Shown here: positions 1,049-42,149 of the stretch, piece after piece
How positions within the stretch are numbered: position 1 is the first letter of the stretch
Layout: each line of letters starts with the position of its first letter
Assembly: GCA_001636495.1 (NCBI GenBank)
Contig: KV440964.1
Location: 3,674,666-3,738,665, forward strand
Source of the DNA: Sutcliffiella horikoshii
GTDB lineage: Bacteria; Bacillota; Bacilli; Bacillales; Bacillaceae_I
DNA length: 64,000 bases
Direction of reading: 5' to 3'
Notes under the pieces: model-generated
What the model was told of the DNA's origin: nothing
The model's database searches: none
Seen by the model: the letters and a program-made list of their open reading frames with translations, nothing else
Position numbers and translations under genes: made by a program

Positions 1049-1089
1049 GAATTCACTAGTACAGCTAAACATAATAAGTATAGTGTTTC

Positions 1090-1186
1090 GACCCCACTTC
1101 CCTACGCTGGTGTTAACCAGATCAGGTTCTAAGAGTCTTGAAGTCACACTTCAATCTCAGCCTTATAAAGGCACCCCTAGTGGTAG
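1090..1186 (-). promoter_or_regulatory. TPP (thiamine pyrophosphate) riboswitch
   Basis: On the minus strand the conserved TPP aptamer elements appear in order: GGGGTGCC, CTGAGA, ACCTGATCTGG and CAGCGTAGGGAAGTGG. The ends CCACT and AGTGG can form the closing P1 helix. The aptamer lies about 110 bases before tenA with a terminator hairpin between them, which fits transcriptional shut-off of thiamine salvage when TPP is plentiful. Confidence 0.96.
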
Positions 1187-1261
1187 ATTCGTATAAAGTT
1201 GTCGGAAAGCAATTTCTGATACCTATCTTAATCAGCTTTTTCCATTTTGTCAAAGAATAAT

Positions 1262-7410: not shown

Positions 7411-7442
7411 TTTCTCAAATATTAAAAATACTCAAATAGCAC

Positions 7443-7512
7443 TACTCGTATAATCTTGGAGATATGGTCCATAAGTTTCTACCAAACTGCCGTAAAGAGT
7501 TTGACTACGAGA
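7443..7512 (+). promoter_or_regulatory. Purine (guanine-type) riboswitch upstream of adenine deaminase
   Basis: The P1 helix CTCGTA/TACGAG encloses the purine aptamer core with ATAATCTTGG, ATATGG, GTTTCTACC and CCGTAAA. The junction J3/1 reads ACTA, giving C at position 74, the base that selects guanine over adenine in this class. The 3' strand GAGTTTGAC (7497-7505) can pair with GTCAAACTC at 7550-7558, which overlaps the terminator stem, so it can act as antiterminator when ligand is absent. Confidence 0.95.
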
Positions 7513-7551
7513 ATACCCCATCTTATTTAAATTGGGGTAGATCTCTCTTGT

Positions 7552-7582
7552 CAAACTCCAAGTTACTGCTTGGAGTTTTATT
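7552..7582 (+). terminator. Riboswitch terminator before ade
   Basis: AAACTCCAAG (7553-7562) pairs with CTTGGAGTTT (7569-7578), then TATTTATT. It competes with the aptamer's antiterminator pairing. An extra helix of CTACCCC type lies between aptamer and terminator. Confidence 0.88.
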
Positions 7583-7602
7583 TATTCTTGGAGGGAAAAA
7601 CA

Positions 7603-9319
7603 ATGAAACAAAACTTAGAAAATATGATTAAAGCCGCTGCAAAGCAAACAAAAGCCGATCTAGTCATTAAAAATGGAAGAATAATAGATGTCTTTAATCT
7701 AGAAATAATAGAAGAGAATCTTGCAATAAAGGACGGAATGATTATAGGGATGGGAGATTATGAGGGAAAAGAGGTGTTGGATGCAGAGGGGGCTTACATT
7801 TGCCCTGGCCTCATAGACGGCCATGTCCATATGGAATCCTCCATGATCCATCCTCACTATTTTACTAGCACAATTCTTTCTCATGGGGTCACCACTATTA
7901 TCACAGACCCCCATGAGATTGCGAACGTAAGTGGCACGGACGGGATACAGTTCATGCTAGATGCAACCGAAAACGTACCTGTTGATGTTTTTTTCATGCT
8001 CCCCTCCTGTGTACCTGCAACCTCTTTTGAACATAATGGGGCAACCATACAGGCATCTGACCTGGAACATTTTTATCAACACGATAGAGTCATCGGACTG
8101 GCGGAAGTGATGGATTTTCCTGCAGTTCGTGACAGAGATGGTGCCATGCTAGCCAAGCTTTCTCAGGCTACCCAACATAAAAAGCAGATAGATGGCCATG
8201 GAGCAGGATTAGGAGCAGAAGAGTTGAACATCTATGCATCTGCCAACATAAAAACAGACCATGAATGCGTTACCGCTCAAGAAGCAAAAGAAAGAATCAA
8301 ACGGGGAATGTATGTGATGATGCGGGAAGGTTCTGTTGCAAAAGATGTCAAAGCCATCCTTCCTCTGGTAACCGAACGGAACGCACGCCGTTTTCTCTTC
8401 TGTACAGATGACAAACATCTCGATGACTTAGTGAATGAGGGAAGCATCGACCACAATATCCGAATTGCAATCGAAGAAGGGCTTAATCCTCTTCTTGCTA
8501 TACAGATTGCTACGTTGAATGCAGCCGAATGCTTCTCGCTGACGGACAGAGGCGCAGTGGCGCCAGGATATCGTGCTGACTTTCTTTTCTTAGAAGAACT
8601 TGAGCGTTTCACCATCAAAGATGTCTTTAAAGAAGGTATTAAAGTAGATCGCAACACCTCCATGAGCCTACCTTTTCAAATACCTGATATGGTTCTCGAG
8701 TCTGTCAACATAGCACCATTAACTAAAAACGATCTCCAAATAAAAGTTGATCCAAAAAAAACCTTGCAACATTATCGAGATTATTCCAAACAGCCTCGTA
8801 ACCAAACATAAATGTGAAATGGTATCCACAAAGGAAGGTCGATTTGTTTCTAATATGAAACAAGATCAATTGAAGCTGGCTGTCATGGAAAGACACCGTC
8901 AAACTGGTCATATCGGCCTTGGCATTGTAAAAGGGTTTCAAATAAGTGATGGTGCCATGGCATCAACCGTTGCTCATGACTCTCACAATATCGTGACGGT
9001 GGGGACGAATGATGAAGACATGTTACTTGCGGTCCGGACACTTGAACAGATGCAAGGCGGCCTAGTTGTGGTAAAAAACGGAAAAATTGCGGCCTCATTG
9101 GCACTACAGATTTCAGGCTTGATGGCTAGTATGCCTACCGAAAAAGTTCTTCAATCCCTACAAGAACTTCACCATGCACTAGATCTGATTGGAAGCCAGA
9201 ATACCTTCAATCCCTTTGTGGCACTTTCTTTTTTGAGCCTACCCGTAATACCTGCTTTAAAACTGACAACTTCAGGCTTGTTTGATGTAAGCCGTTTTGA
9301 ACATATTTCTATTCAATAG
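7603..9319 (+). pseudogene. ade: Adenine deaminase, split by a frameshift in an A8 run
   Basis: Adenine deaminase converts adenine to hypoxanthine. The ATG at 7603 follows CTTGGAGGGAAAAACA; an upstream in-frame TTG lies inside the terminator and is unlikely. The first frame (7603-8811, 402 residues) carries the amidohydrolase metal site DGHVHMESSM and ADFLFL near its end, then leaves frame and stops at 8811. The second frame (from about 8747 to 9319) carries the C-terminal domain starting NIIEIIPNSLVTKH. Joining the frames at the eight-A run at 8754-8761 gives one protein of about 570 residues, the usual length. One A fewer would restore the frame. It is therefore either a sequencing error, a true inactivating indel, or a slippage site. 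Confidence 0.85.
8747..9319 (+). CDS. C-terminal part of adenine deaminase (second frame)
   Basis: This reading frame holds the C-terminal domain of the split adenine deaminase above, with SDGAMASTVAHDSHNIV and GGLVVVKNGKIAASLALQISGLM, both typical of the family. No convincing ribosome binding site precedes any of its ATG codons (for example 8855), so it is probably not translated by itself. Confidence 0.6.
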   Translation: MIQKKPCNIIEIIPNSLVTKHKCEMVSTKEGRFVSNMKQDQLKLAVMERHRQTGHIGLGIVKGFQISDGAMASTVAHDSHNIVTVGTNDEDMLLAVRTLEQMQGGLVVVKNGKIAASLALQISGLMASMPTEKVLQSLQELHHALDLIGSQNTFNPFVALSFLSLPVIPALKLTTSGLFDVSRFEHISIQ

Positions 9320-10097: not shown

Positions 10098-10550
10098 ATG
10101 TATCCTTATCGTCAACTTAATTTCCCACCATTCGGACCGCCTCCCGGTGGTGGCGGCCAAGGTCCTGGCTTCGGACCACCTTCTGGAGGACCGCCTGGTT
10201 TCGGACCACCTGGGGGACCTGGCTTTGGACCACCTGGAGGAGGACCCGGAGGACCAGGTGGTGGACCTAGCAGTGGACCTCCATCAGGACCACCACCATC
10301 CAGCCCGCCGCCGCAAACTGCTGCAAGCTTAGGTGCACCAGGTGGACCAACTGCATTTGCGGTGGATCCAGGAGCATTTTTCGGCTGTTTGTATCGTTTT
10401 ACTTGGGTCAGGTTAAACAACGGGGAACAGTTCTGGTTCTATCCTACATTTATCGGAAGAAGGTCTGTCGCAGGCTATAGATGGTTCTTCTTTACATGGG
10501 TGTACTTCGGAATTGATACTAACCGCATTCGCTCTTTCCAATGCATCTAA
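10098..10550 (+). CDS. Gly/Pro-rich protein with conserved aromatic C-terminal segment
   Basis: A 150-residue protein. Residues about 10-75 are a low-complexity tract of GP, PG and FGPPGG units, and residues about 95-150 form a compact aromatic, Cys-containing segment (FFGCLYRFTWVRLNNG to RIRSFQCI). No signal peptide or membrane helix is evident. Proteins of this plan occur in Bacillus and are often of unknown function; a surface or spore-coat role is possible but not shown. The ATG at 10098 follows AGAAGGGAGAAACCCT. It has its own terminator. The repeat tract is purine/pyrimidine-biased and may vary in length. Confidence 0.7.
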   Translation: MYPYRQLNFPPFGPPPGGGGQGPGFGPPSGGPPGFGPPGGPGFGPPGGGPGGPGGGPSSGPPSGPPPSSPPPQTAASLGAPGGPTAFAVDPGAFFGCLYRFTWVRLNNGEQFWFYPTFIGRRSVAGYRWFFFTWVYFGIDTNRIRSFQCI

Positions 10551-11254: not shown

Positions 11255-11848
11255 ATGTCTACTTCCACATCAGAACGAATTAAGCATAGCGCCCTTCAGC
11301 TTTTTGCCCAAAAAGGGTATTACGGAACATCGCTGAATGAGGTGGCAACAATGGTCGGAATAAAAAAACCCTCATTGTATGCACATTTTAAAAACAAAGA
11401 TGATTTGTATCTCTCTATCCTGAAGGAACTGATGGATACATTTATAGAACGGATAAACATCGACGCTTCTCTTCGGAATCAACATTCAACCAAAGAGCTA
11501 TTAAACCGTTTCTTGAAAAACATGGTGGGCTTTTGGAAGGATGAAACACTGGGACTTTTGTATAAGAGGACACTCCTTTTTCCTGAGGAACATTTTCGCA
11601 CTTATATACAGGAACAATTCATTGAAACAGAAGCTCATACGACGGATATCCTTAGAGATATTATTCAAAAGGGACAGCTAAAAGGGGAGCTTCCTACTCA
11701 GTCAATGGAGCCATTAATCGACTCTTTTTATTGCCTGATCGACGGCCTCTTTGTACAGCGGTTCTTTTATTCCTTACCTGAATATGACAAAAAGGTTGAA
11801 CATGCCTTCGAGCACTTTTGGAAAGCAGCAGAGATTGGAGGAAATTAA
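11255..11848 (+). CDS. TetR/AcrR family transcriptional regulator
   Basis: A 197-residue repressor with an N-terminal TetR helix-turn-helix (residues about 5-50: IKHSALQLFAQKGYYGTSLNEVA, then KPSLYAHFKNKDDLY) and an all-helical ligand domain after it. It is the first gene of an operon with two small multidrug resistance subunits; the next gene starts two bases after its stop. The gene order regulator, SMR, SMR resembles yvdT-yvdS-yvdR of Bacillus subtilis. It probably represses the operon and is released by an exported cationic compound; the inducer is unknown. Confidence 0.9.
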   Translation: MSTSTSERIKHSALQLFAQKGYYGTSLNEVATMVGIKKPSLYAHFKNKDDLYLSILKELMDTFIERINIDASLRNQHSTKELLNRFLKNMVGFWKDETLGLLYKRTLLFPEEHFRTYIQEQFIETEAHTTDILRDIIQKGQLKGELPTQSMEPLIDSFYCLIDGLFVQRFFYSLPEYDKKVEHAFEHFWKAAEIGGN

Positions 11849-11850
11849 TC

Positions 11851-12198
11851 ATGCAATGGGTGTATATTTTCATAGCAGGACTTTTAGAAATAGTTTGGGT
11901 TTTGGGATTAAGGTTTTCCGAGGGATTTACAGTTCTAGTCCCGAGCATTGTGACAGTTATCACTTTAACAATCAGCTTTTATTTGTTTTCGAAGTCTCTT
12001 AAATTTATCCCGATCGGAACAGCTTATGCCATTTTCACCGGTTTTGGAGCTGCCGGTACTGCTGTTGTCGGCATATTGTTCTTTGGAGAATCGTCCAGCT
12101 TTTCTAAGTTATTCTTCATTGGACTTATGCTGGTTGGAATTATAGGTTTAAAAATGACCACTCCTAATGAAGACAAAGAATATAAGGAGGGGATTTGA
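11851..12198 (+). CDS. SMR family efflux subunit (first of pair)
   Basis: A 115-residue, four-helix small multidrug resistance protein. The first helix carries the essential membrane Glu in AGLLEIVWVLGLRFSEGF, a pattern close to the SugE/Gdx (guanidinium) branch. The ATG at 11851 is two bases after the TetR stop, with GGAGGAAAT as ribosome binding site inside that gene. It is followed at once by a second SMR gene, so the working exporter is probably a heterodimer driven by protons. Substrate is inferred only. Confidence 0.88.
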   Translation: MQWVYIFIAGLLEIVWVLGLRFSEGFTVLVPSIVTVITLTISFYLFSKSLKFIPIGTAYAIFTGFGAAGTAVVGILFFGESSSFSKLFFIGLMLVGIIGLKMTTPNEDKEYKEGI

Positions 12199-12199
12199 G

Positions 12200-12514
12200 A
12201 TGGCATGGTTATTTCTTATGATAGCCGGTATTTGTGAAATTGGCGCAGTAGCTTCATTGAAAATGGCTGATGGATTCAAAAAACTCTATCCTTCCATCAG
12301 TTTCGCCGTCATAGGAATGTTGAGTTTTTATTTTCTTTCTCTTGCTTTGAAAGAAATTCCAATGGGCACAGCCTATGCGGTATGGACTGGCATCGGTTCG
12401 GCCGGCAGTGTACTCCTTGGGATGATTTTGTTTAAGGAATCCAAAGATCGAATTCGAATTGTTTTACTCTCCCTCATCATAATTGGTGTAGTCGGATTGA
12501 AAATTACGCAGTAA
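12200..12514 (+). CDS. SMR family efflux subunit (second of pair)
   Basis: A 104-residue, four-helix SMR protein with the conserved Glu in AGICEIGAVASLKMADGF. It starts one base after the first SMR gene's stop, behind AAGGAGGGGATTTGAG. The pair likely assembles as a heterodimer in opposite membrane orientations, as in other paired SMR systems. It is followed by a strong terminator, which closes the operon. Confidence 0.88.
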   Translation: MAWLFLMIAGICEIGAVASLKMADGFKKLYPSISFAVIGMLSFYFLSLALKEIPMGTAYAVWTGIGSAGSVLLGMILFKESKDRIRIVLLSLIIIGVVGLKITQ

Positions 12515-16537: not shown

Positions 16538-16588
16538 CGAAACAGTATAAAATAATCTACATACAGTATTTATCACTATATTGCGATA

Positions 16589-16762
16589 AAGGTGTCTTTT
16601 AATAGACTTAATAGGGAATCCGGTGAAAATCCGGAACTGTCCCCGCAACTGTAAGTGCAGACGATCTTGAATAACCACTGTATAAGCAGGCTTAACGGCT
16701 CTTATATGGGAAGGATCAAGATAGGAAGAAGCACGAGTCAGGAGACCTGCCTTTAGCGATTA
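16589..16762 (+). promoter_or_regulatory. Cobalamin (adenosylcobalamin-type) riboswitch
   Basis: Conserved pieces appear in order: CCGGTGAAAATCCGG, ACTGTCCCCGCAACTGTAAG and the B12 box GAGTCAGGAGACCTGCC (about 16736-16752). It precedes nrdAB, a B12-independent ribonucleotide reductase. A terminator stands between the aptamer and the first gene. Confidence 0.95.
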
Positions 16763-16899
16763 GTTTCTATTTCTTCGGGAGTTGAGAAGATGAAACGATC
16801 CATAGAACCTTGTGGAAAGAGCAGGTATATCTGACTTCAACATTTTGTTGACAATGTTCCGGATACCGCCCCTCCTTTCTACTTTTCTATGATCGTTTG

Positions 16900-25786: not shown

Positions 25787-25819
25787 CACTTCATAATCCA
25801 AACAATTCAACATAAGCAT

Positions 25820-25890
25820 AACTCGTATAATAGTAGGAATATGGCCTACGAGTCTCTACCAAGCTACCGTAAATGGCTTGACTACGAGTG
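25820..25890 (+). promoter_or_regulatory. Guanine riboswitch upstream of xpt
   Basis: The P1 helix ACTCGTA/TACGAGT surrounds the purine aptamer with GTAGGAATATGGCCTAC, GTCTCTACC and ACCGTAAAT. The J3/1 junction reads ACTA, so position 74 is C and the ligand should be guanine or hypoxanthine/xanthine. Confidence 0.96.
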
Positions 25891-25891
25891 A

Positions 25892-26617
<726 letters not shown>

Positions 26618-41959: not shown

Positions 41960-41987
41960 TAAGTATCATCGTTCATTACATTTTAAC

Positions 41988-42132
41988 CTATTGCTTAATC
42001 TTTACAGAGCGGGGGAACCATAGTGATATCCAGATAAGAATCCGGAATATCTTGGGGTGAATCGTACATATTGCGAAGAGGACTCTCATCCTCTAACCCG
42101 ACAGCTAACCTCGTAAGCGTATTGAGAGAAGG
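41988..42132 (+). promoter_or_regulatory. c-di-AMP (ydaO/yuaA) riboswitch
   Basis: Conserved ydaO elements are seen in order: GCTTAATCT, AGAGCGGGGGAACC, GGGGTGAATC, GAGGACTCTCATCCTC, CCGACAGCTAACCTCGTAAGCG and GAGAGAAGG. It precedes ktrAB, a known target: high c-di-AMP shuts down potassium uptake. Confidence 0.97.
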
Positions 42133-42149
42133 GTCTAATCGTCATATAT

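Follow-up and report, generated by a model that had tools for sequence, protein, structure and literature searches.

The adenine deaminase gene (ade, also adeC) in a 64,000-nucleotide stretch of the Sutcliffiella horikoshii chromosome (contig KV440964.1; the window) is divided between two reading frames at a run of eight As. The most probable explanation, though far from an assured one, is a recent inactivating single-base indel in this run, an ordinary frameshift. Both halves match a single protein family, the gene is intact in relatives, and no later decay has followed the break. The locus comprises the following features, in window coordinates:

7426 to 7527, forward strand: purine riboswitch aptamer (RF00167) in the ade leader (cmscan, 81.5 bits against a gathering threshold of 37).
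7553 to 7578, forward strand: intrinsic terminator-like hairpin, the riboswitch expression platform (terminator scan; 11 pairs and a T-rich tail).
7603 to 8811, forward strand: 5' part of ade/adeC with the amidohydrolase domain, frame 0 (Pfam, TIGR01178 and frame reading).
8754 to 8761, forward strand: A8 run and site of the frame change, one A above the in-frame count (sequence and junction alignment).
8762 to 9319, forward strand: 3' part of ade with the Adenine_deam_C domain, +1 frame, the open frame itself spanning 8747 to 9319 (PF13382, E 6.2e-63; TIGR01178 positions 371–552).
8819 to 8821, forward strand: first in-frame ATG of the C-terminal half, a possible restart judged from the sequence.

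The original prediction placed a clean ade frame from 7603 to the A8 run and a normal C-terminal domain in the next frame up to 9319, and both its coordinates and its description are right. The gene starts at an ATG at 7603 behind a ribosome site (GGAGGG, 7590–7595). The run occupies exactly 8754–8761 with a C on either side and is the longest homopolymer within ade, the rest of which is undamaged. Past the run, frame 0 adds 16 unrelated residues and closes at a TAA (8809–8811), 50 bases downstream, giving 402 residues counted from 7603. The +1 frame opens at a TTG at 8747 and encodes 190 residues.

The N-terminal half matches Pfam Amidohydro_1 (PF01979; E 3.8e-41), while the C-terminal half covers positions 2–169 of the 169 in Adenine_deam_C (PF13382), a complete domain. 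Both matches lie above cut-off and in the right order, but in two frames. The NCBIfam model TIGR01178 ('ade') behaves in the same way, with the first frame covering positions 1–371 of 552 and the second 371–552, complete and non-overlapping. The two frames score 438 and 207.4 bits against a curated cut-off of 472.5 for one protein, so that each half alone falls below it and no single reading frame of the window gene gives a full-length match above it. A second half belonging to another gene behind ade had been named as the outcome that would overturn the claim; this is rejected, as the same TIGR01178 model continues into the second frame. Chance would not place a complete Adenine_deam_C domain immediately after the first half and in register with it. 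Taken together, the halves correspond to the 571-residue enzyme of the closest congeners. The window gene agrees with known Ade/AdeC proteins (TIGR01178; PF01979 and PF13382; solved relative 3NQB/3T81/3T8L) in sequence and total length and has the same two domains in the same order, but here they lie in different frames.

The frame change is confined to one genome. The nearest named relatives of the window genome are S. horikoshii, S. rhizosphaerae and S. halmapala. None of the ~95 relative loci encoding both halves, a count that leaves out the window's own copies and includes every other Sutcliffiella locus tested, changes frame between them; one distant locus (L017) among them has an internal stop. 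A search of the genus found a full-length ade match above the family cut-off in 13 of 15 other genomes, and two pieces only in the window's genome. The remaining two carry no close ade, only a more distant paralogue; they are G009, a single contig at 99% completeness, and G010, which is 80% complete. This paralogue, which we take to be YerA-like in B. subtilis naming, is apparently present in all 16 genomes, the window's own included. The absence of ade from the complete congener G009 shows that the gene is dispensable and can be lost.

The A run itself is also private, being absent from all 15 aligned relatives. The junction sequence is GATTC-TGGAGAACC or GATTC-TGGAAAACC in the closest relatives and GATCCAAAAAAAACC in the window. 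The codons of the nearest relatives at the A8 position, such as GATTC-TGGAAAACC, are non-repetitive, which suggests that the run arose by substitutions on the window lineage and that the assembly then has one A extra.

Riboswitch, terminator, start codon and ribosome site are all intact, as would be expected if the event is recent. The purine riboswitch leader is common to the window gene and its congeners, with the aptamer preceding ade, and carrying GACTAC, in every one of the 12 relatives tested. Purine riboswitches are typed by the C74/U74 rule, and the window aptamer has GACUAC at the discriminating position, the C form, which presumably makes it guanine/hypoxanthine-type. Such an aptamer would suit an enzyme that makes hypoxanthine. 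A second purine riboswitch, also with a C-type discriminator, lies at 25803–25904. Together with TPP (1082–1188, reverse strand), cobalamin (16573–16768, forward) and c-di-AMP (41982–42133, forward) riboswitches, the window contains five in 64 kb. Other genes of the window include a small protein (10098–10550) whose N-terminal part is a long low-complexity stretch rich in Gly and Pro (FGPPGGP repeats), followed by a short C-terminal part of aromatic character. Judged from their translations, two overlapping SMR-type (small multidrug-resistance) transporter-like genes (11818–12514) lie behind a TetR-like regulator (11255–11848).

Pairwise Nei-Gojobori estimates give no measurable sign of relaxed selection in the C-terminal half, either in dN/dS against G015 and biET1 or in outgroup distances. 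The N-terminal half has a dN/dS of 0.12 between the window and G015 and 0.09 between the window and biET1, and the C-terminal half 0.14 and 0.13, respectively. The sister pair G015 and biET1 gives 0.13 and 0.18 for the two halves, and outgroups are no more distant from the C-terminal half of the window gene than from that of intact relatives. An old pseudogene is hence rejected. Unrelaxed selection and an intact riboswitch indicate that the break is either very young or an artefact.

Under the favoured explanation, a recent indel, the starting point would be a normal riboswitch-controlled adenine deaminase. The run would have drifted to seven As on the window lineage, and replication slippage from A7 to A8 would recently have inserted one A in the living strain. 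The message would then yield the 402-residue amidohydrolase part, ending in the 16-residue nonsense tail and lacking the C-terminal domain. Truncated in this way, the enzyme of the sequenced strain has most likely lost its activity. Intact homologues and a break in one genome only are the pattern of a singleton-indel pseudogene. The case is indistinguishable from the singleton class of the GeneTack survey, frameshift pseudogenes or homopolymer sequencing errors, in that the break occurs in one genome only, is confirmed by homology, lies in poly-A and has no conserved frameshift site (PMC3711429).

A single base-calling error would give the same picture, including the lack of further decay, which fits a very recent indel and a sequencing error equally. 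Here the strain would truly carry A7 and an intact 571-residue adenine deaminase, with one A over-called. This is a substantial possibility, if a less probable one than a real indel. The break falls exactly in the longest homopolymer of a gene without other damage, and both sides of it are under selection typical of a working gene. Moreover, the GeneTack survey, based on genomes from before 2013, expected that most singleton frameshifts confirmed by homology would be sequencing errors (PMC3711429).

The quality of the assembly speaks against such an error, as judged from 858 kb of the window's chromosome (20% of the genome) compared with 800 kb of G015. In this region 496 of 523 orthologues (identity of at least 60%) are full length. 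Unbroken orthologous coding sequence contains 15 A8 runs other than that of ade, along with 89 A7, 34 T7, three T8, one T9 and one T10; besides the 15 A8, some 160 long coding runs are unbroken. Clear mid-gene frameshifts affect only two genes, ade and a GNAT-like acetyltransferase, the latter outside any long run, and breaks in G015 are comparable in number. Homopolymers in general therefore appear to be read correctly. The original prediction had offered a homopolymer assembly error; as a general fault of the assembly this is excluded by the 15 unbroken A8 runs and the two clear frameshifts in 858 kb, while a lone error at this single A8 is possible.

The split acetyltransferase lies outside the window at G000:C1:3,907,780, its family being assigned from its translation. 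A third frameshift candidate, at about position 267 of the window, was rejected as no more than sequence upstream of a neighbouring gene. Most of the internal stops listed in the 858 kb survey are close to where the match begins and appear to reflect start codons chosen too far upstream.

Some full-length enzyme could instead be produced by transcriptional or translational slippage on the A8 run, although this is improbable. Some leakage by slippage on A8 is likely on general grounds. Runs of A8 to A9 can slip, and some insertion sequences are inferred to slip productively on eight As, with selection against slippage evident from nine As in many bacteria (PMC1088944). The CCA_AAA_AAA at the junction also includes a ribosomal slippery heptamer. 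However, the C-terminal half is in the +1 frame, which is restored only by the loss of one A or the gain of two (A7 or A10). One A gained, or a -1 ribosomal shift on A_AAA_AAA, leads to a stop after 12 codons; ribosomal -1 frameshifting is thus rejected as yielding the wrong frame. In E. coli and Buchnera transcripts, homopolymer errors genome-wide are mainly insertions and deletions inside homopolymers are rare (PMC5574713). No stimulatory RNA structure was found downstream of the run (z 0.33), which rejects that aid to frameshifting as well, and strong slippage on A8 in this genome is made less credible by the 15 further coding A8 runs that lie in working genes. Nor is the run conserved in any of the 15 aligned relatives (0/15), which argues against selected recoding. 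Genes known for poly-A slippage, among them insertion sequences, T. thermophilus dnaX (PMC1088944) and those of Blochmannia (PMC3017870), similarly have an A run joining two frames of one protein. Unlike them, the A8 of the window is unconserved and its repair requires one A lost or two gained, and no evidence points to productive slippage.

A more specific proposal is that a low rate of slippage in the transcript, from A8 to A7 or A10, at this private run caps the output of a riboswitch-controlled enzyme, giving two products, the amidohydrolase part alone and a little full-length protein; we consider this very unlikely. Restart at the ATG at 8819, 7 bases past the stop of the N-terminal half and lacking a Shine-Dalgarno sequence, is possible, but the product would miss the start of the Adenine_deam_C domain. 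The broken gene may still yield full-length enzyme in trace amounts, but nothing points to a selected mechanism.

Least probable of all, to the point of being negligible, is a phase-variable switch in which A7/A8 toggling of adenine deaminase is a selected trait. Homopolymer slippage is reversible in principle, and metabolic genes are occasionally phase-variable (PMC3711429). Against this, the run is a short one within the gene of a cytosolic enzyme. It is also private to the window's genome at the species level, whereas a phase-variable tract would be kept across strains or species with both on and off states. In addition, mutS and mutL are intact; both are full length, and a mutator strain arising through loss of mismatch repair is likewise rejected. 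An eleven-C run outside the window (G000:C1:3471535-3471545) lies just past the stop of a pseudouridine synthase-like gene, on whose strand it reads as G; it appears intergenic and so is not a coding phase-variation tract.

The original prediction left its four options unranked. A recent indel and a base-calling error fit everything seen, whereas phase variation and programmed slippage are disfavoured by a private run, the absence of a broken congener, a frame that common slippage does not reach and the lack of downstream RNA structure; recoding and phase variation jointly carry less than a tenth of the probability. The observed break is an ordinary frameshift and no new mechanism, and an A8 run flanked by undamaged gene sequence does not by itself point to recoding. 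The locus should be annotated as adeC with a frameshift, possibly a pseudogene or a base error, rather than as two genes, and beyond annotation it matters little. A real indel should leave the strain unable to convert adenine to hypoxanthine through AdeC.
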